Position numbers and translations under genes: made by a program. This document shows, one piece after another, positions 1,412 through 51,430 of a stretch of 64,000 nt of DNA. Numbering within the stretch: the first letter of the stretch is position 1; each line of letters begins with the position of its first letter. The stretch is from the NCBI RefSeq assembly GCF_030143245.1, contig NZ_JARJNS010000006.1, positions 310,001 to 374,000 on the forward strand. The letters run 5' to 3'. This DNA comes from Rhabdaerophilum sp. SD176 (lineage in GTDB: Bacteria > Pseudomonadota > Alphaproteobacteria > Rhizobiales > Beijerinckiaceae). The notes beneath the pieces were generated by a model that saw only the letters and a list, made by a program, of their open reading frames with translations, was not told the DNA's origin and made no database searches.

Positions 1412-4400
1412 TCAGGCGGCGAGGCGGTTCAGGCGTTCCTCGAGACCGACGAGGACCGCGCGGTTGACAGCTTCGAGTGCAGCGAGTTTTGCTTCCAGCT
1501 CGGCGGCCTCGGCAATCTCGACGGCGCTGGCGACCTGGCCGGCGCGGTAACTGTGATACTGACCGAGAATGCCGACCAGCTTGTGCGCGGCGCGGCGCAG
1601 CAGGACGTCATCTCCGGAAGCCCGGGCTGCCGCGATCCGCTCTGCTTCCTCGCGGATATTCTCGATCGCCGTTTCCAGCAACGGGCGAAAGACATCGGGC
1701 GTGCAGAGTGATTCCAGCTCGCCGAGCGGATCATGTTCGTCGTCATGCCAATCGATCGGCAGATGTGCCGGCGACGGAGCGACCAAAGTGGCCTCCTCCT
1801 CGGGCTCAGCCTCGCCCGCCTGGCGGCCGACAAGGCCCTGCGCAACGCGCTCCAGCAGGTCGTTCAGTTCGGCCGGCCGGATCGGCTTGGCCAGGTGATC
1901 GTCGAACCCTGCCTCGAAGGCTTTTTGCCGGTCGGTCTGGAAGGCCTGGGCAGAGAGCGCGACAGCGGGGATGCGGCCTGCCGGCTTGGGTAGCTCGCGC
2001 AGCCGGGCAACCGCTTCGTAGCCAGTCATCCCCGGCATCTGGATATCGAACAGGGCGAGGTCAAACCCGCCCTTTCCAGCCTCGACCAGCGCCATGCAGC
2101 CATCCTCGGTGGCGACGACCTCATGGCCGCGTTTTTCCAGCATGGTCCGGATGACAAGTCGGCTCGCCGGCGTATCCTCTGCGACGAGGATCCGCATCCG
2201 GCGCTGGGACGTGGCAGAAGCGCCCCGGTCAGTTCGCCGAACCTCGCTGCGGGCCGGCGCCTCGACAACCGGGACCGTGAGATCGAACGCAAATGTCGTT
2301 CCACCCTGCTCTTGCGGCAGCAGGCGGATCTCGCCCCCCATTTCCGCGACGAGCCGCTGGGTGATGGCAAGGCCGAGGCCGGTGCCGGCCGCCTTCTGGC
2401 TTTCGGGCAGGCGGGCCCGTTCGAAGGGCTCGAAGATGGTCGGTTGCAGCGACTCGGGGATGCCGATCCCTGTATCGGAGACGCGAAAATGCAGCATGGC
2501 AGAGCCTGCCTGCCCGGATGGCCGGGCCTCGACCTGCAGGCGGACGGACCCGGACGGCGTGAACTTGATGGCATTGCCCATCAGGTTGATCAGGACCTGA
2601 CGGAGATGTCCCGGATCCAGCAGGACATGTTGTGGCACGTCCTCTGCCAATGTGGCAGAGAGATCCAGCCCCTTGTTGCGGGCCAGCACGCCGAGCATCT
2701 GTTCGACAGCACGGATTGCGCTGCGGATCTCGCACGGCACCGGAGCCATCTCGACCTTGCCCGCCTCGAGCCGCGAGAAATCGAGGATATTATTGATCAG
2801 CTCGAGCAGATGGGCACCGGATTCGCCGATGCCATCGACGAAACGGGATTGCTCCGGATCGAGCCGGGTTTCCTCGAGCAGGCTCGACAGGCCGAGAATG
2901 GCATTCATCGGCGTCCGGATCTCGTGGCTGATCATGGCCAGGAAGTCCGATTTCGCGCGGTTGGCGGCCTCGGCAACCTCCATGAGCGAGCGCATGCGCT
3001 CGGCCTGCGCCTCGAAATCGGCCCGGGCCGCCATCAGTGCAAGCTCGCGCGATTTCAGCTCTGTAATATCGTTGAAGACGGTCACGACACCCAGCGAAGC
3101 GGTCAAGCGGTTGGAAACCTGCAGCCAGCGGCCATCGCCCAGCTTCTCGACAAAGGTGGCCTCTTTGCGCTGGCGCCGCCGCTTCTTGCGGAGGTGGATC
3201 GCCTCCTCGACATCGCCTTCGGCCGGCAATGCGCCGGTCTGGAAGGCCTTGCGCAGGAAATCGTCGAAGAGGAGCCCCTTGCGGATGGCAGGCGCGACCT
3301 CGCTGAAGAAGGAGCGGTAGCGGGAATTGCACATGACCAGCCGGTCATCGGCATCGTAAAGGACAAAGCCCTCGCCGATGCTCTCGATCGCATCGCGCAG
3401 CACTTCGCGCGCCCTTCTGCTTTCCTCGGCCAGATCGGCCATCCGCTCCGCTTGCCGGCGCATGCTTTCACGCGCCGTCTCGAGATCGGCAAGGTGCTTC
3501 TTGAGATCGGTGATGTCGGTCCGAATGCCGACCCGCGCGCCGTTGCCGGTGATGCGGTCAGAAACCATCAGCCAGCGCCCGTCGCCGAGGGCCTGCTCAA
3601 ATGGCGCAGAGGGATTGCGATGCCGGTCCAGACGTTCGGCGATCCAGCTTTCCGGATCGGCTTCCGCCAACGGAATCTGTCCCTTCTGTACACCAAAGCG
3701 CAAGATCTCCTCGAAGGGCACGCCCGGGCGAAGCTTCTCGGCGGACAGGGCATAAAGCTCCCGATATTTCCGGTTGCAGCGAACGAGCCGGTCCTCGGAA
3801 TCGTAGATGACGAACCCCTCGTTGATGCTCTCGATGGCCTCGTCCAGCTGCCACCAAGCGGCATCGGCTTCCTTGCGGGCGGCCACGGCCTGCCGCAGCA
3901 GCTGGTTGGCCCGACGCTCGGCGCGCATGAGGTAGATGACGACGCCGCCAATCGTCATCAGGAAGCCCGCGACCAGCAGGCCCAGTTCCCCCTTGATGGA
4001 AGCCTGCGACGCGACGATTTCCTGCCGCTCGAGCCTGTCTGACTCCAAAGCAGCGGTCGTGATGTCGCGGATGGGCGCGACATGCTGCTGCATCCTTCCC
4101 CGAATGGCGCGGATTGACTCCGGATCCAACGGTTTCTGCAATTCGGGATCTGTCGTGACCAGATCAGCCTTGAGCCGGGCCACCGTTTCACGCAAGTTCG
4201 GGCGCTTGTCGAGCGTTCTGGCCAATACGCCGGCCTGATAGAGATCAACGCGGCTCCAGAGCAGGTCGAACCGCTCTTCGAGCTTCGCCTTTGCAGCCGG
4301 ATCGGGCCGGTCTGCCATTTCCGTCAGGGCACTCAGAAAATGGTGCAGCTCGATCTCGGTCTGGGCTGCCGCCCAGAGAACGTTTTCGGAAATGGCATAG

Positions 4401-4525
4401 TCCAGCCGCCGCTCGATGCTGTGGTAGCGCGAGACGGCCAGACCCGTCATGACGATGATGGCCGCCACAAGCGCGGCGACCAGCACGCGAACCCTACGGT
4501 TCGAACGGGGTGGATCGAGGACCAT
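1412..4525 (-). CDS. Hybrid sensor histidine kinase with two PAS domains, receiver and Hpt
   Basis: An inner-membrane phosphorelay kinase of 1037 residues. Membrane segments lie near residues 13-31 and 182-200 and bracket a roughly 150-residue periplasmic sensor region. PAS domains follow at about 230-340 and 375-490, then the HisKA dimerisation helix with phospho-His534 in MISHEIRTPM. An HATPase domain (DTGIGIPE, GTGLGLAIT), a receiver (ALFDIQMPG) and a C-terminal Hpt domain (AAHKLVG) complete it. Carrying all four phosphorelay modules in one chain is typical of ArcB/TorS-type kinases and fits handover to the response regulator downstream. The gene upstream encodes a secreted molybdopterin-fold protein, a plausible ligand- or redox-sensing partner for the periplasmic domain, although that link is inferred. 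Confidence 0.93.
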   Translation of the reverse strand: MVLDPPRSNRRVRVLVAALVAAIIVMTGLAVSRYHSIERRLDYAISENVLWAAAQTEIELHHFLSALTEMADRPDPAAKAKLEERFDLLWSRVDLYQAGVLARTLDKRPNLRETVARLKADLVTTDPELQKPLDPESIRAIRGRMQQHVAPIRDITTAALESDRLERQEIVASQASIKGELGLLVAGFLMTIGGVVIYLMRAERRANQLLRQAVAARKEADAAWWQLDEAIESINEGFVIYDSEDRLVRCNRKYRELYALSAEKLRPGVPFEEILRFGVQKGQIPLAEADPESWIAERLDRHRNPSAPFEQALGDGRWLMVSDRITGNGARVGIRTDITDLKKHLADLETARESMRRQAERMADLAEESRRAREVLRDAIESIGEGFVLYDADDRLVMCNSRYRSFFSEVAPAIRKGLLFDDFLRKAFQTGALPAEGDVEEAIHLRKKRRRQRKEATFVEKLGDGRWLQVSNRLTASLGVVTVFNDITELKSRELALMAARADFEAQAERMRSLMEVAEAANRAKSDFLAMISHEIRTPMNAILGLSSLLEETRLDPEQSRFVDGIGESGAHLLELINNILDFSRLEAGKVEMAPVPCEIRSAIRAVEQMLGVLARNKGLDLSATLAEDVPQHVLLDPGHLRQVLINLMGNAIKFTPSGSVRLQVEARPSGQAGSAMLHFRVSDTGIGIPESLQPTIFEPFERARLPESQKAAGTGLGLAITQRLVAEMGGEIRLLPQEQGGTTFAFDLTVPVVEAPARSEVRRTDRGASATSQRRMRILVAEDTPASRLVIRTMLEKRGHEVVATEDGCMALVEAGKGGFDLALFDIQMPGMTGYEAVARLRELPKPAGRIPAVALSAQAFQTDRQKAFEAGFDDHLAKPIRPAELNDLLERVAQGLVGRQAGEAEPEEEATLVAPSPAHLPIDWHDDEHDPLGELESLCTPDVFRPLLETAIENIREEAERIAAARASGDDVLLRRAAHKLVGILGQYHSYRAGQVASAVEIAEAAELEAKLAALEAVNRAVLVGLEERLNRLAA

Positions 4526-4559
4526 GCCGAAAGTCTAACCGGAAGGCGAAAAGGAAGCC

Positions 4560-5066
4560 TTACTGGATCTCGAGGTTCCGAAGCTGCCAGATCCACTTGA
4601 AATTGTGCTTCTCATCGGCCAGTTCCGGGAAGCTGTCGCGCGGGTAGACCACCCAGAGCGGGCCTCGGTCCCGGCGACGCAACTCCTGGCCATCCGCCTT
4701 CATGGCGAGAATGACCGGGTACTTCCGGATTTCTGCCACATCAAGCTCGACGGCGTAGTTGTTGATGGCGACCGCGCGGATTTTTGTGCCCTGCGCACCC
4801 ACGGCATCAAGAACAGCGGCAAGGGGAACGCCCTCGAACGTCGTAACGCCATCCGCCCAGGAATGGCGGGTCTTTATCTGCCGGACGCCGAGCGCGACGA
4901 GCATGTCGCGGTCGAAATCGGCACGTCCGGCCTGGTTGGTCGTCTTCACCTTGCCGGCCACCGACAGGATCACCTCGCCCTTGGGCGCGGTTAGGCCCTG
5001 AGCCTGAGCCATCCCAAGGCCCGTCACCATCATTCCCAACACGATAAGGGCCTTCAGAATGCGCAT
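4560..5066 (-). CDS. Secreted molybdopterin-binding-fold (sulfite-oxidase-like) protein
   Basis: A 168-residue protein with a Sec signal peptide (MRILKALIVLGMMVTGLGMAQA) followed by a short oxidoreductase molybdopterin-binding fold. Visible pieces are VTTFEGVPLAAVLDAVGA, NNYAVELDVAEI and GPLWVVYPRD. The cofactor-ligating cysteine of true sulfite oxidases is not seen, so this is more likely a binding or sensor protein than an enzyme. Such proteins are often found beside sensor kinases. It lies 34 bases upstream of the hybrid kinase and is probably the first gene of its operon. A strong ribosome site (AGGAGG) precedes the ATG. Confidence 0.8.
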   Translation of the reverse strand: MRILKALIVLGMMVTGLGMAQAQGLTAPKGEVILSVAGKVKTTNQAGRADFDRDMLVALGVRQIKTRHSWADGVTTFEGVPLAAVLDAVGAQGTKIRAVAINNYAVELDVAEIRKYPVILAMKADGQELRRRDRGPLWVVYPRDSFPELADEKHNFKWIWQLRNLEIQ

Positions 5067-5101
5067 CTTGTACCTCCTGCGTCACAATGCCCCGATCCCT
5101 T

Positions 5102-5118
5102 TGCAAGAACCGGGCAAG
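5102..5118 (-). promoter_or_regulatory. Candidate sigma-54 promoter of the kinase/regulator operon
   Basis: On the minus strand CTTGCCCG-GTTC-TTGCA matches the -24/-12 pattern. The -12 box TTGCA is perfect, 5 of 7 positions fit at -24, and the spacing between the dinucleotides is the required 10 bases. Transcription would start about 25 bases before the ATG at 5066. It suits an operon that itself encodes a sigma-54 activator. Confidence 0.4.
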
Positions 5119-5167
5119 GCCGGATGCCATGATGCGCGCGAGAAAACGCCGCCAAACGCGTCCCGAT

Positions 5168-5202
5168 TTGCAAATCGCAAAGATAGCGATTGCAATTCGC
5201 GA
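5168..5202. promoter_or_regulatory. Two TTGCA-based near-palindromes, candidate activator sites
   Basis: TTGCAAATCGCAA (5168-5180) and TTGCAATTCGCGA (5190-5202) are near-palindromes with centres 22 bases apart, about two helical turns. They lie some 60-95 bases upstream of the candidate sigma-54 promoter. They resemble the TTGCA-N3-TGCAA type site known for LuxO-family activators. Binding by the product of the gene at 1-1298 is inferred. Confidence 0.35.
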
Positions 5203-5258
5203 CGCTGAGTCATGCTTTTTGCAATCCGCCAGTGCCATCAGACGGTGCTCTCGGACTG

Positions 5259-5895
5259 GTGCTGTCAGACGAGCCTAAAACGTCTCGGAATGTCCCCCAC
5301 CCCGACATGGATCAGGCCGCGCAAAGCTGGCGCCACTCAGCAAGAGCGGCGGCGCGGCGATCCTTGAACGCTGGCCTGGATGAGAGGTGCCGCTCCTGGT
5401 TGAAGTGGTTGTGGACGGAGCCGTGCACCGCGGCGAATTTCTGCAAACTTCGCGGCCTGGACCTGCGGTTCAATGCTGCCTTCTTGTCGCGGCGCTTTAT
5501 GGCGAAGCTTTCGGGCACTTCGCCCTCGTGATCGACGGCGCGCCAAAGATAGTGTTTCACCCCCTTGATCTTCACGAAAACCTCGTCGAGATGCCATCGC
5601 CGATGCCGGAAAGACCGCATCGCCTGGACCCGACTCCGCCGGATCTCGGACGCAAAAATCGTCCCGAACCGGTTCCTCCAGAACCGCACCGTCTTATGCG
5701 TGATGTCGATGCCGCGCTCGTGCAGCAGGTCCTCGACGTTCCGGAGCGAAAGCGGGTAGCGCACATACAGCATCACCGCGAGGCGAATGATCTCGGGGCT
5801 CGTTTTGAAATACCGGAAAATGCGGGCGTTGCTCATCCGGTCCGGCTGGCAGCCCTCCCCGTCCGCGGCAAGCCGATTTTCCTCTGACAGTGCCC
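5259..5895 (-). mobile_element. IS6-family relic 1 (internally deleted)
   Basis: Terminal inverted repeats are visible: GGTGCTGTCAGAC at the left, and the complement of GGGCACTGTCAG at the right (5884-5895). About 637 bp lies between them, against roughly 0.8 kb for a full IS6-type element. No 8-bp target duplication is seen. A second, weaker copy of the right end (CCGATTTTTCTCTG) follows at once at about 5895-5917. Relics of the same family recur six more times in the window, all in this orientation. Confidence 0.85.
5312..5836 (-). pseudogene. IS6-family transposase with internal deletion
   Basis: The reading frame is open for 174 residues and keeps the N-terminal half (MSNARIFRYFKTSPEIIRLA, HRRWHLDEVFVKI, WRAVDHEGE). 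It jumps from RDKKAALN to LQKFAAVHGS and ends normally in NQERHLSSR...EWRQLCAA. Roughly 60 residues are missing, including the region that carries the second catalytic Asp and the Glu of the DDE triad (an RRRERAM-type segment is preserved in the relic at 29.7 kb). The product therefore cannot be an active transposase. The relic at 61.1 kb has the same junction. Confidence 0.85.
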
Positions 5896-6027
5896 CGATT
5901 TTTCTCTGAAAATGCGCCAAGTGGCATTCTGCATTTTGGATACAATGTGCCTATTTTTTAGTCAGTTATTAAACGCAACATTCTAGGCTTGGTTGAACAA
6001 TTGGCCGCAAGGTAGCGCGACATTGGG

Positions 6028-8280
6028 GTGGGGAATATGTGTGCGTTTCGAATCCAGAGCCTGAAAATCCAGTATGCAGCAGCAGCGGCATTCGTTTTCG
6101 CGGCTGGCTTCGCAGTTGCCACAACAATATCGACGTCGGTGGTCGATGATGCTGCGAGATCGGAGCATGCAGCGGAAGCAGCATCGGCTGTCCGCGAAGC
6201 CACCAGAGCGATAGAGGCGATTCAGACCCGTTCCTCGATCTACGCGGATCTGATTTCCCGGAAGCGGGACTTCGCGGTTCTGATGCAGAAGGGTGAGGAC
6301 AATGAGCGGCTCAATGCCATCATCATGGAATTCGAGGAGCTGAAAAAGAGAGATCCTGCGGTCTCGACATTCGAGGTGACCAACGCGGCCGGGATCATTC
6401 TCGGACGGGGCCACAACCCGGGCGTGAAAGGCGACGACAAGAGCAAGCTCAAGGACATAAAGGCCGCGACAGACGGGAAACTGGTTTCCGGTCTGGTTGT
6501 TTCACCGACATCGGGCGACGCGACAATTGGTGCTGTCGCACCGGTCAAGACCGGATCTGGCGTGATCGGCACATTGCGGGTTGGCTCGCGCCCGACCCGG
6601 GCAATCGTTGCCGAGATCAAGGCGCGAACGGGTGCGGATATCGCCTTGTATTTCAAGCGAAAAGCCACAGCTTCGACCTTTGAAGAAAGCCAGGTACCTG
6701 TCCTTTCCGAGTCAGACTATGCCCGCGCGATGGCTGGAGAAGCTGACCTGGTTGCGGTCCCGATCAGCGATCGGATGTATCTGTCGCGGCTGCATCATCT
6801 GCCGAGCGATCTCGGCGAGGGATTGGTGCTGGCCGTTTTCGTCGATGGCGCTCCCTTTGCTGCCCGGATTGCAGAGTTCCGGCAGTCCATGGTGCTCTAT
6901 GGGCTTATCGCTCTGCCCTTTGTCATTCTTCTCGGCTTCCTGACAGGTCGTTGGTTTGCTCGGCCGCTGGTGAAAACCGCTGGCGCCATGGACCGCCTGA
7001 CAGCAGGGCGGGATGCCACGCTCACCTCACTGGCGCGACGCGGTGACGAAGTTGGCGATATTGCCCGGTCATTCGGAATGCTGGCCATCGAGGTCGAGAA
7101 TGCCGTCCGGCTGCACCAGACTGTAGCCGGCATGCCGACGGGGCTTTTGACCATTCATCGCGGCAAGGGATGGGTGATTGACTACGTCAATCCGGCACTC
7201 ATCGGGGTTCTTGGCGCGGTCGGAAAACTCCTGCCCGCAGCGCCAGATCAACTGGAAGGGATGAAGGCAGATGTCCTTTTTGGAAGCGTCGGGCTGACAA
7301 ATGCCACCCTCGAGACTTTGCCTGAGGACGGCTTGCGGCACCGCGCCAGCTTCGGTCATCTGACCTTCCTGCTCACGCTGGCCAATATTCGTTCGAAACA
7401 GGGCGAGAAGGTTGGCGTCATGGTGGCGTGGGAGAACATGACCGATCGGCAGGAACTGGCGGCGAATTTTGAGTCGGCCGTGCTGTCCCTGGCTGGGTCC
7501 GTCGAAGTCGCCGCGATTACGCTGCGTGAGCGCATCGATGAGGTTCGCACGAGCGCCTCTACCACCCAGATACAGGCGGAAGCGGTCGCAAGGGCCTCGG
7601 AAGAAAGTTCGGCTTCTGTGACCACGGTGGCTTCCGCTGCCGAGCAATTGCGCGCATCAATTGGCGACATTGGCCACCATATCGAAGCATCCTCCGCGAT
7701 TGCCGGTCAGGCGACGAAGGATTCGCAGCATCTTGTCGGCGTGGTCCGCGACTTGTCCATCGCTTCTGAAAAAATCGGGGCGATCGTGCAGGTCATTGGC
7801 ACAATCGCAAGCCAGACCAATCTACTGGCTCTCAACGCCACAATTGAGGCCGCCCGTGCAGGCGAAGCCGGGCGCGGTTTTGCCGTAGTTGCCTCGGAGG
7901 TGAAAGCGCTCGCCAGCCAGACCACGCGCGCCGCCGATCAGGTCGTCGCGCAGATCGGTTCAATCCAGCAAAAAACAGGTGAAGTGGTCAACGCTCTCCA
8001 ATCGGTGGCGTCAACGATCGAGGCGATTGGCGGCAATGCGAGCGGGGTGTCGGCCTCGGTCGAGCAACAGCGATCCGCGACCGAGGATATTGTCGCGAGT
8101 GCCCAGCAGACAGCGGCCAGCACAAACGAAGTGGCGACCAGCATGACCGAGGTCTCTGTCGCCACAAGCAGGACCGAGCATGCGACCGAGAGCATGCTGG
8201 CCCAAGCCGACGTGCTGAAGGCTGATGTTGCCCGGCTGCGTCAAGAGGTGAACCGTTTCCTGAAATCGCTCGCAGCCTGA
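6028..8280 (+). CDS. Methyl-accepting chemotaxis protein
   Basis: A transmembrane chemoreceptor of about 750 residues that would signal to CheA/CheW. A first membrane helix (about 14-35) is followed by a periplasmic cache-like sensor up to about 285, a second helix ([17 protein letters not shown]), and a HAMP linker ([13 protein letters not shown]). A PAS-like stretch spans about 365-485. The cytoplasmic signalling hairpin carries the hallmark tip [20 protein letters not shown] followed by [11 protein letters not shown]. No other chemotaxis genes are nearby, so it is an orphan receptor. The start is either the GTG at 6028 or the ATG at 6037; neither has a clear ribosome site. Confidence 0.92.
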
Positions 8281-45082: not shown

Positions 45083-46105
45083 TCATGACGCGGCAAGCAA
45101 CTCTACAGCGCACCCCTCTGCCAGAGAATGCGTCCGGATCGGCACATCCAGAAATCGCTGGATTGTCGTGATGTTGGTGCGCGTATGGTCACTCAGTGGC
45201 CCGGTCGTGAAACGACCACCCGCGCCGAGCGCCATCGGCAGAAGGAGTTGGTCCGCGAGATGCAGGCCGATCGCATGAGCCCCGGCGAGGTAGTCGCGCG
45301 CCTCCCTTGCGGCACTGGCTGCGACCGCTTCCGCGGAGACACCCTGCCGGCCGAAGCCGGTGAAAACCTCGGTCACCGCTTCATGCTCGACCTCGATCAG
45401 CACGACATTCCCGGTGCTCGGCGCGCCATCGATCTGGCAGGGGGCGAGTTCCGCATCCGCCCAGCCGAGCATCTCCTTGGCATGGACAACCTCGCGCCTT
45501 GCGATCGCGAAGGGCAGGTTCGCAACCTGCGCCTCGATGCGACGACGGACGAGCGCGCCGCGTGTCTCCAGTATGAGCGGCTCCAGCTTCGCCGACGGTT
45601 CGATCTCGACCACAATCTCCCCGCCTCCGGCCGGGAAGAAACCCGGTCGGGTCAGCCGGATGCTCACGCGGAAGCCAATCCTTGCCTGCAGGGGCAAGAA
45701 GGCGCGTGCGACGAATTCGAAGGGCGGTGCGGCGAGGTTGTGCGTTCCACCCTGAATGACAAGGCGCGAGGGAGCATCGGCGAGCGCCAGCGGCAGAAGC
45801 AGCGTCTGCAACACCAGTGACGTCGAACCGGCAGAACCGATATTGAAGACATGCGCACCCGCAGCGATGCGGCCGGGTTCAAAGACAAGCCGCGTCGAGC
45901 CTATTTCGGCATGGCGCGTTTCCGCCCCGCAGATCGCCGCAGCCGCCTTCACGGCCGTCAGATGCTGGCGCATCAGGCCGGGCTTTTCGCGGCCCGCGCG
46001 AATGTTCTCGATGGCGAAGGGCTTCCCCGTGACCATCGACAATGTGAGCGAGGAGCGCAGGATCTGCCCGCCACCCTCACCAAGGGAACCATCGATGATC
46101 ATCAT
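45083..46105 (-). CDS. rtcA: RNA 3'-terminal phosphate cyclase
   Basis: A 340-residue enzyme that uses ATP to turn RNA 3'-phosphate ends into 2',3'-cyclic phosphate through a covalent His-AMP intermediate. The family start is MIIDGSLGEGGGQILRSSLTL. Further marks are NIRAGREKPGLMRQHLTAVK, RPGFFPAGGGEIVVEIEP, HLADQLLLPMALGAGGRF and the catalytic His in GPLSDHTRTNITTIQ. It is the last gene of the RNA-repair operon, 54 bases after rtcB. Cyclic ends are substrates for RtcB, so the two act in sequence. Confidence 0.95.
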   Translation of the reverse strand: MMIIDGSLGEGGGQILRSSLTLSMVTGKPFAIENIRAGREKPGLMRQHLTAVKAAAAICGAETRHAEIGSTRLVFEPGRIAAGAHVFNIGSAGSTSLVLQTLLLPLALADAPSRLVIQGGTHNLAAPPFEFVARAFLPLQARIGFRVSIRLTRPGFFPAGGGEIVVEIEPSAKLEPLILETRGALVRRRIEAQVANLPFAIARREVVHAKEMLGWADAELAPCQIDGAPSTGNVVLIEVEHEAVTEVFTGFGRQGVSAEAVAASAAREARDYLAGAHAIGLHLADQLLLPMALGAGGRFTTGPLSDHTRTNITTIQRFLDVPIRTHSLAEGCAVELLAAS

Positions 46106-46159: not shown

Positions 46160-47404
<1,245 letters not shown>

Positions 47405-47455
47405 GGTCCATTCCTTCACAAAAGCCTGCCCGTTGGGCAGAAAGACAGAATTCGG

Positions 47456-47590
47456 CGTCGTGAGGGGCGTGGCGACAAGTTTTGGTGAGACACCTCTCCA
47501 GGGCATCGCGGCCCAAGAGGGAGGAGTCGAACCTCAAGCCTATGGCCTTACCGATGTAGTCCCACCGGCATTCGCCATGCCCTCACGACG
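47456..47590 (-). ncRNA. Y-RNA-like gene 4 (nearest rtcB)
   Basis: A 135-base RNA with a long terminal stem: CGTCGTGAGGG pairs with CCCTCACGACG, extended by ATGGCGA with TCGCCAC (one mismatch). The shared 5' motif GGCGAATGCC...GGGACTACATC and the shared 3' motif CTTGTCGCC are present. Between them a T-arm-like hairpin (GAGG-TTCGACT-CCTC) is followed by an extended acceptor-like stem (CCTCT ... AGAGG with GGGC/GCCC) closed by the loop CGCGAT. The D-arm part is degenerate. Together with the rsr-rtcB location this identifies a YrlA-type RNA bound by the Ro protein. Confidence 0.75.
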
Positions 47591-47603
47591 AAGGCAGAAA
47601 GGG

Positions 47604-47736
47604 GTGCGGCGACGAGGGTTCGCGAGACGGTTTATTGAGCTACTGACGCCTTGCGGCGCAGGGTGGATTTGAACCACCGACCGCTTCCCCTAGGGAAAGT
47701 GCTCTACCGATGGAGTCCCGCTGGCATTCGCCGCGC
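47604..47736 (-). ncRNA. Y-RNA-like gene 3, circularly permuted tRNA mimic opened in the D-loop
   Basis: The terminal stem GCGCGGCGA / TCGCCGCAC has 8 of 9 pairs. Motifs GGCGAATGCC and CTCGTCGCC are at the ends. Inside, reading 5' to 3', are the 3' half of a D-arm (GGTAGAGCA), an anticodon-arm-like hairpin (CTTTCC-CTAG-GGGAAG), a T-arm (GGTGG-TTCAAAT-CCACC), and the acceptor 3' strand CTGCGCC. A GCAA loop follows, then the acceptor 5' strand GGCGTCAG (one bulge), then TA and the D-stem 5' strand GCTC. The tRNA is thus complete but cut in the D-loop, where the Y stem emerges. Confidence 0.8.
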
Positions 47737-47747
47737 GAAGGGAAAAC

Positions 47748-47882
47748 CGTGACGACAAGGGATCGACGAAACATTCCTGCTCTACCTGGCTGAGCTACAG
47801 GCCCCCAGTGATGGACCTGACGGGATTCGAACCCGCGACCCGGATCGTAAAAAGCGATGTAGTTCCGTCTGCATTCGTCACG
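47748..47882 (-). ncRNA. Y-RNA-like gene 2, circularly permuted tRNA mimic opened between D and anticodon arms
   Basis: The terminal stem CGTGACGA / TCGTCACG is perfect and covaries with the other copies. Next come an anticodon-arm-like hairpin (ATCG-CTTTTTA-CGAT), a T-arm GCGGG-TTCGAAT-CCCGT (47836-47820), and the acceptor 3' strand CAGGTCC. The loop is ATCACTGG, then the acceptor 5' strand GGGCCTG (7 pairs, one G-U), TA, and a full D-arm GCTC-AGCCAGGTA-GAGC (47795-47779). Its end is CCTTGTCG, matching the shared 3' motif. A tRNA finder would see two tRNA halves here in the wrong order. Confidence 0.85.
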
Positions 47883-47913
47883 CTATCCCGCATTCTTCCT
47901 TTCCTGTTCAGGG

Positions 47914-48023
47914 CCATGGCGACAAGAGGGACGAGACCGGCTCCGGATAACGATGAGTCCGGTGGCGGTTTCCTTGCCGCCGCGCCTTGGTGGTGGATGT
48001 AGTCCCGTCGGCATTCGCCATGG
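47914..48023 (-). ncRNA. Y-RNA-like gene 1 (nearest rsr), without tRNA-like part
   Basis: A 110-base RNA with a perfect 9-bp terminal stem CCATGGCGA / TCGCCATGG. The shared motifs are GGCGAATGCCGACGGGACTA at the 5' end and CTCTTGTCGCC at the 3' end, and GGGAC can also pair with GTCCC. The interior has two plain hairpins (GGCGG/CCGCC and CCGGA/TCCGG) and no T-loop or D-arm, so it looks like the Ro-binding module with a different insert. It starts about 50 bases after the rsr stop. Confidence 0.72.
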
Positions 48024-48071: not shown

Positions 48072-49634
48072 TCATTCGGCGAGCGCGATCTTCTCGATCT
48101 CGCCAACCCAGTGGTCGGGCGTGAGTTCACCGCGATGAAACGCGCCGATCACCTCGAACACCGCATCGGAGAAACCCCCGATATTGAGGATATCCGGCCG
48201 CTCCACCGCCTGTGTGGTGGTGGAAGGCTGGATGTTGATGCAGACCAGCTTCGCCTTCGGGTTGCGCACCTTCAGCTTCTGCCAGCTCTGCATCATCGCG
48301 GTTCCGCGATAACCATTCGGATCGGCATCCATCCAGGACTCGTTGTCCGAGACGAACACGACCAGATCGACCTTCGCCTTCTCGGCCACCAGCTTTTCGA
48401 GCGGGGCCGAGCAGTTGGTTCCGCCGCCTCCGATCGAAGCGAGCTTCGCTGCGTTGGTCAGCACCGTATCGCGCGGGTTGAGGTCGATCTTGACCACATC
48501 CTGCTCGAACGGGATGACCCGCGCCTCGCGGTTCGCCCTGAGGAAGGCCGCCGCGACAAGGCCCGCGACATCGATGCAGCGCACCGCTGTCGTTCCGCCA
48601 CGACGGAAGCCTGTGACCGGGTACGACATCGAGCCCGAAACATCCGGGCAGATGACGACCTTGCCGTCGACCGTCGGAACATTGCTGACCGCGATTTCCA
48701 TCGTATCCTGCAAGGCCTCCCGGACGGGCGCGGGCACGTTCGACGCCATCGCATGCGCCACCATCAGCTGGTACGGGAAGACCTTCGCCTTCCGGATCGC
48801 CGTCTCGTCCCGCAGGCGCTCGGCCACGTGGCGAACGAACCCCTCATCCTCGAACGCCTTGTGACGCGCGAAGGTGTTGAGGTTCATCCTCAGCATGTGC
48901 CAGCGCGCCTTGCGGCCGATGGCGATCCAGTGCTCCCGCGTGAGCGGCAGCGCCGTCAGCATCTGGAACGGCACATCCGGCACCTCGCGGGACGGATCTG
49001 CCTTGAACGCCTCGAATTCCCGCACGATCTCCGGCAGGGCCGAGACATCATGCGGCTTCCCGATCAGGTAGCCATAGAGCGCCGCCCGCGCCGCGGAACG
49101 CGGCCTGGGATGAACCATCTTGATCACATCGGCCAGCGAGGGGTCGTTTCCCACCGCCGCCCGCATGATCTCGCTGTCCGAGGCGTTCTCCAGCCAGAGC
49201 TGGACAAGGCGCTTGGGCCGGGTGCCGAGGGACTTTCGCCCCGTGGCACCCGAACGGAGGATCTGCACAACGTTGCGCAGCATCTTGCCGTTATCGACCA
49301 CGCGGTTGAACGCGAGGCTGAAATGCTCGGTCTGCATCATGGAGAGATAGGCCAGCAGCAGGGCCGGCATATCCTTCATGAAGCCCTTCTCGCGGGCATA
49401 GATGGCCGTCTTCGCCATGAATTCCGGCTCGATTTCCGGAAGCAGGCGGGTGATTTCGTCCAGCTGCTCCCGCGCCTCCGCGTAGAAGGTGCGGTTGAGC
49501 GTGCCTGTGGCCGCGAGCTGCGCCAGCTTGTGGCGCGGCGTGAGGCTGTAGGCCGGAGCCCCCTCGTGGTTCTTCCCATCGGGGCGCGGGAGCAGCTTTC
49601 CAACGATCGATGCAAACACGGATTTGTTTGCCAT
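48072..49634 (-). CDS. rsr: Ro60-like TROVE/VWA RNA-binding protein (Rsr)
   Basis: A 520-residue ring-shaped RNA-binding protein. The TROVE HEAT-like domain covers about 1-340 (TPRHKLAQLAATGTLNRTFY, MKDMPALLLAYLSM, RMNLNTFARHKAFED). A von Willebrand A domain with intact metal site follows (CPDVSGSMSYP, GGGTNCSAP, VVFVSDNESW). Ro proteins bind Y RNAs on the outside and misfolded RNA in the ring. I start it at the ATG at 49634 with AGAAGGA upstream; the longer frame to 49667 would overlap the promoter. It is the first gene of the operon rsr-Y RNAs-rtcB-rtcA. Confidence 0.93.
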   Translation of the reverse strand: MANKSVFASIVGKLLPRPDGKNHEGAPAYSLTPRHKLAQLAATGTLNRTFYAEAREQLDEITRLLPEIEPEFMAKTAIYAREKGFMKDMPALLLAYLSMMQTEHFSLAFNRVVDNGKMLRNVVQILRSGATGRKSLGTRPKRLVQLWLENASDSEIMRAAVGNDPSLADVIKMVHPRPRSAARAALYGYLIGKPHDVSALPEIVREFEAFKADPSREVPDVPFQMLTALPLTREHWIAIGRKARWHMLRMNLNTFARHKAFEDEGFVRHVAERLRDETAIRKAKVFPYQLMVAHAMASNVPAPVREALQDTMEIAVSNVPTVDGKVVICPDVSGSMSYPVTGFRRGGTTAVRCIDVAGLVAAAFLRANREARVIPFEQDVVKIDLNPRDTVLTNAAKLASIGGGGTNCSAPLEKLVAEKAKVDLVVFVSDNESWMDADPNGYRGTAMMQSWQKLKVRNPKAKLVCINIQPSTTTQAVERPDILNIGGFSDAVFEVIGAFHRGELTPDHWVGEIEKIALAE

Positions 49635-49666
49635 TGCTCTCATCCTTCTTTTGACAACAGACCTCA

Positions 49667-49684
49667 TTGCCAGGTTCGTGCCAA
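49667..49684 (-). promoter_or_regulatory. Sigma-54 promoter of the rsr-rtcBA operon
   Basis: On the minus strand TTGGCACGAACCTGGCAA fits YTGGCACGN4TTGCW with one mismatch and the required 10 bases between GG and GC. Transcription would start about 20 bases before the rsr ATG. It lies in the gap divergent from rtcR, which encodes the matching sigma-54 activator. A palindrome ACCCGCGGGT follows at 49697-49706. Confidence 0.75.
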
Positions 49685-49834: not shown

Positions 49835-51430
49835 ATGACCAAGCGTCGCGTCGTCATCGGCTTTCTCGGCACTTCGCTTGATGCCGGCAAGCACAATCGC
49901 TGGGAACGCTGGCGGCCTACGGTCGCGGTCTGCCAGCATGAGGATATGGTCGTCGACCGGATCGAGATCATCCACGACAACCATGCCGAGACGCTCGCCC
50001 AGCGCATCACGGCGGATATCGCCCAGGTCTCGCCCGAGACCGAGGCGCGTTGCCATGTGATGAACCTCAAGAACCCTTGGGATTTCGGCGAGGTCTACGC
50101 CGCGATGCATGATTTCGCGCGCGCCTATCCGTTCGACACAGACAACGAGGAATATCTCGTCAACATCACGACCGGCACGCATGTCGCACAGATCTGCTGG
50201 TTCCTGCTGATCGAGGCGCATTACATTCCCGCGCAGATGCTTCAGCTTACTCCGCCGCGGCGCTGGCAGGATGGTGGCCCGGGCAAATACGACATCATCG
50301 ACATCAACCTTGCGCGCTATGACCATATCGCAACCCGCTTCAAGGCAGAGCAGGTGGAGGGGTCATCCTTCCTCAAATCCGGCATTGCCACGCGGAATGC
50401 GGCCTTCAACCGGATGATCGACCGCATCGAGCAAGTCGCGATCCGCTCGCGCGCGCCGTTGCTGCTGACAGGCCCGACCGGTGCGGGAAAATCGCAGCTT
50501 GCACAGAGGATCTATGCGCTGAAAAAGGCGCGCCATCAGGTACGCGGAGACTTCGTCGAGGTGAATTGCGCTACCCTGCGGGGTGATGGCGCGATGTCGA
50601 CCCTCTTCGGCCATGCGAAAGGGGCGTTCACCGGCGCTTTGCAGGATCGTGCGGGCCTCCTGCGCAAGGCGGATGGCGGCATTCTCTTTCTCGACGAGAT
50701 CGGCGAACTCGGCATCGACGAGCAGGCAATGATCCTGCGCGCCATTGAGGAGAAGCGCTTCCTGCCAATGGGCGCTGACAAGGAGGTGGCGAGCGATTTC
50801 CAGTTGATCGCCGGCACCAATCGCGATCTCTCGCAGGATGTGCAAAAGGGCAAATTTCGCGAGGATCTGCTGGCCCGACTCAATCTCTGGACCTTTGAAT
50901 TGCCGGGGCTTGCGGATCGTCGCGAGGATATCGAGCCCAATCTCGATTTCGAACTGCGCAACTTCGCTGTGCGTGAAAACGAGCTGATCACCTTCAACCG
51001 TGAGGCTCGGGCCCGTTATCTCGCCTTTGCGACATCGCCCGAGGCAAGCTGGAACGCGAATTTCCGTGATCTCGGCGCATCGGTCACACGCATGGCGACG
51101 TTTGCGCCCTCGGGCCGCATCACCGAGGATGTGGTCATCGAGGAGATTGCCTGCCTTAAGCGCAGCTGGTCACGCGCGGGAGCCAATGACGGGCAAGCCT
51201 TGCTTGCAACTCTCCTCGGCGAGGAGGTCCTTCAGGCCATCGACCTGTTTGATCAGATCCAGCTCGCTTCCGTAATCCGCGTCTGCCGCGAACATTCGAG
51301 CCTCAGCGCGGCTGGCCGAACCCTCTTCGCCGCGTCACGAGTGCAGAAGGCCAGCGCCAATGACGCAGACCGCCTGCGCAAGTACCTCGCTCGGTTCGGC
51401 CTCGACTGGCAGGCGGTGAGCCGGGCATAG
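49835..51430 (+). CDS. rtcR: RNA-repair operon activator RtcR (CARF plus AAA+)
   Basis: A 531-residue sigma-54 activator. The N-terminal CARF ligand domain (about 1-180) has FLGTSLDAGKHNRWERWRP and the ligand motif EYLVNITTGTHVAQICWFLL. The AAA+ core has Walker A TGPTGAGKSQLA, the sigma-54 loop KGAFTGALQD and Walker B GGILFLDEIGELG. A C-terminal helix-turn-helix is seen in IRVCREHSSLSAAGRTLFAA. In studied bacteria RtcR is switched on by RNA ends with 2',3'-cyclic phosphate from damaged tRNA. It is divergent from rsr and controls the promoter at 49667. Confidence 0.95.
   Translation: MTKRRVVIGFLGTSLDAGKHNRWERWRPTVAVCQHEDMVVDRIEIIHDNHAETLAQRITADIAQVSPETEARCHVMNLKNPWDFGEVYAAMHDFARAYPFDTDNEEYLVNITTGTHVAQICWFLLIEAHYIPAQMLQLTPPRRWQDGGPGKYDIIDINLARYDHIATRFKAEQVEGSSFLKSGIATRNAAFNRMIDRIEQVAIRSRAPLLLTGPTGAGKSQLAQRIYALKKARHQVRGDFVEVNCATLRGDGAMSTLFGHAKGAFTGALQDRAGLLRKADGGILFLDEIGELGIDEQAMILRAIEEKRFLPMGADKEVASDFQLIAGTNRDLSQDVQKGKFREDLLARLNLWTFELPGLADRREDIEPNLDFELRNFAVRENELITFNREARARYLAFATSPEASWNANFRDLGASVTRMATFAPSGRITEDVVIEEIACLKRSWSRAGANDGQALLATLLGEEVLQAIDLFDQIQLASVIRVCREHSSLSAAGRTLFAASRVQKASANDADRLRKYLARFGLDWQAVSRA

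Follow-up and report, generated by a model that had tools for sequence, protein, structure and literature searches.

Four Y-RNA-like units with a common stem and different heads between rsr and rtcB in Rhabdaerophilum sp. SD176

Well-studied bacterial genomes carry one or two Y RNAs each. The window analysed here, a stretch of 64,000 nucleotides from Rhabdaerophilum sp. SD176, holds four Y-RNA-like units in the gap between rsr and rtcB, and the question raised by this locus is whether they are copies of one RNA or different RNAs built on one plan, and what such differences would serve.

YrlA is a circular permutation of a tRNA (PMC11472068; this and the other PMC sources are represented here by excerpts), in which the stem holds Rsr and the tRNA-like head holds PNPase (PMC8394870), and both Rsr and YrlA bind PNPase (PMC9879122). 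Two Y RNAs are described in Salmonella (PMC9879122), where the operon rsr-yrlBA-rtcBA is induced through RtcR by tRNA fragments with a cyclic phosphate (PMC7790460). As to the role of the tRNA-like part of bacterial Y RNAs, the excerpt of the latter source only lists possibilities.

The locus and its four units

The array occupies positions 48021-47469 of the minus strand, in the gap from rsr to rtcB, and its first unit starts 50 nt past the rsr stop codon. The longest ORF of rsr, the gene of a Ro60 orthologue, spans 48072..49667 on the minus strand (Pfam vWA_Ro60 E 8.7e-18, TROVE E 7.9e-7), the likely start being the ATG at 49634 (MANKS...). On the other side of the array, the same strand encodes the RNA ligase RtcB (46160..47404, start ATG at 47404; Pfam RtcB E 1.3e-131) and the RNA 3'-phosphate cyclase RtcA (45083..46105; Pfam RTC E 3e-76). 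The divergent gene rtcR (49835..51430, plus strand) encodes a sigma-54 activator with an RtcR domain (Pfam RtcR E 7.8e-80, Sigma54_activat E 1.3e-49). In the rtcR-rsr gap, upstream of rsr, a sigma-54-like -24/-12 element, TGGCACG-N4-TGGCA, was detected by consensus match (49668..49683, minus strand); it has one mismatch to TGGCACGN4TTGCW and is the sole match in the window with fewer than two, 18 matches with up to two mismatches being found against 12.6 expected.

Between unit 4 and rtcB, a terminator-type scan gave a weak signal for a hairpin followed by a T-rich tail (47426..47440, minus strand), a possible terminator or attenuator that is identical in the congener G012 and has a similar form in G014. 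Lying directly upstream of rtcB, with this hairpin in between, the segment might be a cis-acting leader of rtcB, an RNA switch or attenuator that yields no separate RNAs. However, the one terminator-like hairpin found by the scan is not above chance (2.3 expected), and in the arrays L080, L082 and L087 the units stand upstream of rsr instead. We regard a cis-acting leader as very improbable.

All four units that the first-pass annotation had placed on the minus strand of this gap are present, with lengths of 106-133 nt, slightly off the 110-135 given there, and the terminal pairings that it had quoted, ATGGCGA/TCGCCAT, GTGACGA/TCGTCAC, GCGGCGA/TCGCCGC and TGGCGA/TCGCCA, are correct. All four have the same handle, in which a conserved internal loop (AAUGC / CUUG or CUCG) lies between the terminal stem and an inner stem, and the 3' motif reads CTTGTCGCC in units 1 and 4, CTTGTCGTC in unit 2 and CTCGTCGCC in unit 3. 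All four units have the long stem of paired 5' and 3' ends with a conserved internal-loop motif by which a Y RNA is recognized, and they are encoded beside rsr.

The heads differ in kind (all coordinates on the minus strand). Unit 1 (48021-47916, 106 nt) carries on its Rsr-type stem two hairpins (47964-47981 and 47943-47962, from folds and comparison with congeners) and no tRNA part. Unit 2 (47881-47749, 133 nt) resembles YrlA in that its tRNA is circularly permuted, with the opening at the anticodon, and is the sole unit of the window with the YrlA-type head order of T arm (47820-47836), acceptor (3' strand 47813-47819, loop ATCACTGG 47805-47812, 5' strand 47798-47804) and D arm (47779-47795). 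Unit 3 (47734-47606, 129 nt) is a circularly permuted tRNA as well, but with the opening in the D loop and, unlike unit 2 with its whole D arm, with D-arm halves at its two ends: the D 3' half (47696-47708), an anticodon-arm-like hairpin CTTTCC-CTAG-GGGAAG (47684-47699), the T arm (47662-47678), an acceptor hairpin (47643-47661) and the D 5' half (47629-47642). Unit 4 (47578-47469, 110 nt) contains T-arm and variable-arm-like sequences and no whole D arm, in the order variable-arm-like hairpin (47538-47547), T-arm sequence (47521-47535) and acceptor-like hairpin (47493-47520).

The Rfam YrlA model (RF02553) matched all four units, none of them at the curated gathering cut-off of 69 bits. Unit 2 reached 68.9 bits (E 1.4e-14), short by 0.1 bit, followed by unit 4 (43.7 bits, E 2.6e-7), unit 3 (26.6 bits, E 0.02, marginal) and unit 1 (22.1 bits, E 0.47, non-significant). 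Because all of them score below 69 bits, no unit of the window is filed strictly as an RF02553 member; the unit 2 of a congener (L072) scored 69.4 bits, above the cut-off. Fold z-scores were modest for units 1 and 2 (-1.95 and -1.12). The minimum-energy fold of unit 2 is without the T arm, which its centroid contains, that of unit 3 has all arms except the D stem, and that of unit 4 has the variable-arm-like hairpin, with the T-arm strands and the inner stem paired otherwise.

The units were also matched with the 41 distinct tRNAs of the genome, an incomplete set with no tRNA-Ile, and with 100 plain shuffles per unit. The best match of unit 2 was Ala(CGC) in permuted form (score 53 vs 39 unpermuted), the next tRNA being Pro with 45 and the shuffle maximum 27. 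Unit 3 reached 32 against a shuffle maximum of 26, with Thr and Ala in a tie that leaves the isotype not clear. The best match of unit 4 among the 41 tRNAs, Leu(CAG) with 28, was not significant (shuffle maximum 35), and unit 1 matched none of them.

Ordinary tRNA or tmRNA genes, or debris of a tRNA array, could in principle give such resemblances: RF00023 and RF04321 matched unit 2 weakly, with 24.8 and 26.1 bits at a cut-off of 47, and YrlA-model matches in ordinary genomes form overlapping series, as tandem tRNA genes would give. However, ARAGORN called no tRNA or tmRNA in the window, the alphaproteobacterial tmRNA of this genome is encoded on another contig (297 bits), and to our knowledge Rsr-type stems are not a feature of tRNAs. 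This reading is extremely improbable and, for practical purposes, refuted; by the same scores and the ARAGORN result for the window, unit 2 does not qualify as a tmRNA.

The claim that these Y-RNA-like genes beside rsr have covarying ends was upheld by the YrlA-model matches, by a test of end pairing and by the alignment described below. In the test, which covered 42 arrays with 127 units, the window's included, the ends were set by sequence motif alone, and the 4 bp outside the motif were fully paired in 90/127 cognate ends, against 52/296 for ends swapped within the same arrays. A wrong 3' end was chosen for some units, unit 3 of the window among them, so that the cognate figure is an underestimate and the contrast is weakened, not created, by these errors.

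Conservation of the units and the D-loop-opened head

When the rsr-rtcB gap was compared with that of congeners, the units were 75-87% identical to those of G005 and the spacers 43-57%. Against G014 the figures were 75-87% for the units and 49-83% for the spacers, with 78-83% for the spacers after unit 2, and against G012 they were 84-98% and 85-100%. The contrast between units and spacers is clear only for G005, because it is weak for G014, where the conservation of some spacers equals that of the units, and G012 is too close to tell.

The head order, abbreviated N-A-B-T for none, A, B and T arm, is the same in the window, G012, G014 and G005. In G014 and G005 an extra N unit stands in front of it, which makes five units each; the extra unit before the others in G014, G005 and G001 has a GGGGGG end and is absent in the window and G012. 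The second hairpin of unit 1 is identical in the window and three congeners. Orthologues of unit 4, the most divergent unit (75-84% identity), are also found in three congeners, and in G014 unit 2 has lost its acceptor tip, the unit itself being kept.

Unit 3 belongs to a class of heads, class B, with the order D-arm 3' half, anticodon-position hairpin, T arm, acceptor and D-arm 5' half. When 12 class B sequences, hand-chosen from the units then known, were aligned and analysed by RNAalifold with no structure given, the program recovered both the outer and the inner stem, the anticodon and T arms and a long-range D stem, whose halves are paired across about 80 columns, and 14/28 pairs showed both-sided changes in at least one sequence. 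In the class B structure proposed here, 91.5% of cells are paired and both-sided changes occur at 20/34 pairs, compared to a mean of 11.3 in shuffled controls and to 6-9 in slid versions. The terminal stem (helix 1) is 97.6% paired, and the acceptor helix (helix 7), with 65% of cells paired, is the weak part of the alignment. The orthologue from G542 (L136) folded without constraint into a complete permuted cloverleaf (z -4.9), and B-type heads were also found in the Verrucomicrobia-labelled MAGs L074, L076 and L078. As the stem enters through the D loop, a class B head would face its partners differently oriented from the head of YrlA.

These results bear on the possibility that the array arose by tandem duplication followed by drift, with only unit 2 functional and the other, redundant copies decaying. 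The tandem order and the motifs common to the units would fit such a history, as would the divergence of unit 4 among the congeners and the case of G014, with its conserved spacers and its truncated unit 2. Against it stand the difference between units and spacers in the comparison with G005, the class B stems that keep pairing through both-sided changes and the presence of B-type heads in the Verrucomicrobia-labelled MAGs, and we consider redundancy quite unlikely.

The main rival concerns the anticodon position. The hairpin at this position in unit 3 carries a loop of 4 nt, CTAG, on six pairs, and such a short loop cannot decode. Mimics in which the anticodon loop is missing or shortened could act as decoys, that is, as uncleavable competitors of the anticodon nucleases whose products induce the operon, and different heads would then cover nucleases with different tRNA preferences. 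In favour of this proposal, an automatic search gave loops of 4 nt in 11 and 3 nt in 3 of the 18 class B units, with 5 nt in one, 7 nt in two and 9 nt in one, although the search maximises the stem, the 3-4-nt loops of L045, L124 and one L094 unit can be read as 7-8 nt on a 6-bp stem, and L044 and L132 were mis-paired. It also agrees with Salmonella, in which cleavage of tRNAs was accompanied by no detected fragments of YrlA, the authors proposing in the excerpt that YrlA may be a competitive inhibitor of the nuclease (PMC7790460). However, decoys would leave unit 1 and the attached Ro-binding stem unexplained, and we hold this proposal to be possible but tentative.

Arrays in other genomes and the alanine signature of unit 2

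Other arrays were collected from pattern surveys, from a search for Rsr homologues (17 loci) and from YrlA-model searches. The pattern used in the census, that of the Rsr-type 5' end, CGAATGCN{4,7}RACTACA, misses ACTCCA units such as unit 3. It matched in 30/298 genomes of the window's family, where 55 matches were listed against 18 for a control read backwards; as single matches may thus arise by chance, only clusters of at least two parsed units were counted as arrays. The pattern matched in 24/337 genomes of the class, in 15/179 and 19/169 genomes of two other phyla, in 51/288 genomes of the phylum of a Verrucomicrobia-labelled MAG, many of them with single matches like those of the control, and in 8/9 genomes in which an Rsr homologue had been found before. 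A genome search with RF02553 was dropped as a census tool, with matches in E. coli and others and one search missing units 1 and 3. The overlapping series of matches in ordinary genomes reach down to about E 1e-9 and would represent junctions of tandem tRNA genes, and a YrlA-model match alone is no evidence of a Y RNA.

The 46 arrays, which include that of the window and are not all independent (L244 and L259 come from one genome), comprise 12 with two units, 12 with three, 17 with four, 4 with five and 1 with six. At least four units were found in 22/46 arrays by a parser that undercounts, L074 having six units by eye and four by the parser. Therefore, the suggestion of the first-pass annotation that four is a larger set than usual has to be withdrawn, the more so with five units each in G014 and G005. 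In 44/46 arrays rsr was located on the same strand within the fetched stretch; the exceptions, L213 and L259, cover only short segments of G1376 and G1640, and in the longer stretches of these genomes, L262 and L263, an Rsr-like ORF can be made out by eye.

The heads of the 154 units in these arrays were assigned to class A in 72 cases, class B in 18, a T arm only in 37 and no T arm found in 27, class A being the known YrlA form opened at the anticodon, with T arm, acceptor and whole D arm. Class A occurs in 44/46 arrays and class B in 17/46, so that class B is not needed everywhere. The first-pass annotation had further suggested that specialised RNAs gate a single Ro protein for different substrates. 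Anatomically, the specialisation stands, since heads differ in kind and 41/46 arrays combine class A with another class. Gating of substrates would be one role for it, but it may just as well concern the partner of the head, rather than what enters the ring.

Several features were noted in individual arrays. The units at L045 1961-2113, L117 2020-2147, L124 1645-1797 (minus strand) and L090 2342-2479 (minus strand) resemble by eye permuted tRNAs of class II (Leu/Ser type), the long variable arm included. The unconstrained fold of the L117 unit contains the D stem, anticodon hairpin, variable arm, T arm and acceptor, and that of the L090 unit only part of them; a count of class II units by regular expression found none, though these four had been read by eye. 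Units without a T arm in L178, L180, L216 and L082 show by eye a common hairpin with the loop CNTGATAA, followed by a second hairpin. Upstream of rsr in L263 (G1640, minus strand, about 2600-7300), Y-RNA units are interleaved by eye with about 20 tRNA-like genes, which suggests a common origin of Y-RNA heads and tRNA arrays. HNH endonuclease ORFs lie in or just after the arrays of L263 (2993-3595, minus strand) and L084 (2744-3160), with Pfam HNH_5 matches of E 8.6e-18 and 6e-15; a similar-looking ORF in L261, detected by eye, had no Pfam match. Beside the arrays L074-L076, L078, L079 and L178-L181, RtcB is 25-27% identical to that of the window and Rsr 58-61%, so a different RtcB branch seems to be paired there with the same Rsr/Y-RNA cassette.

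The acceptor of unit 2, GGGCCTG / CAGGTCC followed by A, is a 7-bp stem with G2:C71, G3:U70 and A73. The bacterial tRNA-Ala identity set comprises A73, G2-C71, G3.U70, G4-C69 and G20 (PMC9976931, table); unit 2 has the first three of these and departs from the other two, with C4:G69 and, in our own numbering, U at 20. In this genome G3:U70 is confined to tRNA-Ala genes, 2/41 distinct tRNAs in the set with no tRNA-Ile. The acceptor loop of unit 2 has 8 nt, starts with ATCA and is closed as encoded.

For comparison, 77 class A units were parsed, and the 55 in which all 7 acceptor pairs form and the loop has 4 nt or more were kept, the 22 set aside including the unit 2 of G014 with its shortened acceptor. 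Pair 3:70 is G:U or U:G in 26/55 units, 25 of them as G3:U70, compared to 5, 2, 2, 6, 5 and 2 units at pairs 1, 2, 4, 5, 6 and 7, in a test that counts units and takes no tree into account; the remaining 30/55 units are without G3:U70. A73 is present in 22/25 G3:U70 units vs 13/30 others, and a loop of the form NNCA in 22/25 vs 10/30. Among the G3:U70 units, G1:C72 and G2:C71 occur in 24/25 each, and the pairs from 4:69 to 7:66 show 2-4 pair types.

When the units were clustered at 80% identity, G3:U70 was kept in 13/30 clusters vs 1-4 with G:U at each other pair, and the association with A73 was no longer significant (p 0.07, 30 clusters); single linkage at 70% merges the set into two clusters and is uninformative on G3:U70. 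The units with G3:U70 are down to 47% identical to each other and also occur in Verrucomicrobia-labelled MAGs beside an Rsr 58-61% identical to that of the window, which makes recent transfer an unsuitable explanation. As an alternative to selection for G3:U70, the units may have inherited the pair from a common tRNA-Ala ancestor; the 30/55 units that are without it and the persistence of unit 2 in G014 after loss of the acceptor tip also count against selection.

A bolder proposal, which we consider unlikely, is that many such Y RNAs, unit 2 among them, are alanine-tRNA mimics under selection, with AlaRS reading G3:U70. Their acceptor loop might be opened by tRNA-processing enzymes as in permuted tmRNA, giving a two-piece, alanine-carrying RNA on the Rsr ring. 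Sister units would then display further types of tRNA, namely class I opened in the D loop and class II with its long variable arm, and the array would be a panel addressing the tRNA machinery type by type.

A probable panel of Y RNAs and its known relatives

As judged from sequence comparison, the window probably encodes a panel of four Y RNAs with one common Rsr handle and different heads, three of them tRNA-mimicking, polycistronic with rsr-rtcB-rtcA. The observed anatomy of the units, its conservation, the compensatory changes and the linkage to rsr are combined here with a predicted course of transcription, processing, Rsr binding and partner choice. An RtcR/sigma-54 promoter would transcribe rsr, the four-unit array, rtcB and rtcA together, and the array transcript would be cut into separate RNAs, all four of which Rsr would hold by the terminal stem, internal loop and inner stem. 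The heads presented in this way would be the two hairpins of unit 1, the tRNA-Ala-like permuted tRNA of unit 2 opened at the anticodon, the permuted tRNA of unit 3 opened in the D loop with its non-decoding anticodon arm, and the T-arm/variable-arm head of unit 4. Upon induction of the operon by broken tRNAs, a single Rsr ring could thus be coupled to partners that read different tRNA faces; these might include PNPase, the known partner of YrlA, as well as AlaRS, tRNA-modifying enzymes and anticodon nucleases.

The head diversity, the D-loop-opened class and the alanine signature seem to be the new parts of this proposal, and the number of units is unsurprising. Neither D-loop-opened nor alanine-type Y RNAs were found in the literature searched, which reached neither the main bacterial Y-RNA papers (Chen 2014, Sim and Wolin 2018, Wang 2018) nor most subscription journals. 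One handle with several tRNA faces would allow direct tests of the role of the tRNA-like head, for instance whether AlaRS, RNase P or a given anticodon nuclease binds one unit but not its sister. The alanine determinant merits attention as one kept across diverged units while neighbouring pairs change, and the analysis by classes makes it possible to detect mimics of the D-loop-opened and variable-arm kinds whose scores do not reach the current Rfam cut-off.

Permuted tRNA genes, with a circular permutation joined through the acceptor end, are present in algae and archaea. The window units share this kind of permutation and, unlike those genes, are closed by a Ro-binding-type stem, with the anticodon missing or degenerate. 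Alphaproteobacterial tmRNA (RF01849) has a permuted, two-piece form. Unit 2 is similar to it in its permuted order around an acceptor stem with alanine identity, alanine being the amino acid taken by tmRNA (PMC3985003), and differs from it in that an mRNA-like domain is absent, a D arm is present and the acceptor loop is closed and 8 nt long.

The bacterial Y RNAs of the YrlA type (RF02553; Salmonella yrlBA; structure 6CU1) are likewise encoded beside rsr in an rtcBA/RtcR operon and have the terminal and inner stems, and unit 2 shares with them the permuted tRNA head opened at the anticodon. In contrast to them, the array of the window has four units, of which unit 2 has a 7-bp acceptor with alanine-type pairs, unit 3 retains a hairpin of the anticodon arm and has its opening in the D loop, and units 1 and 4 carry other heads.
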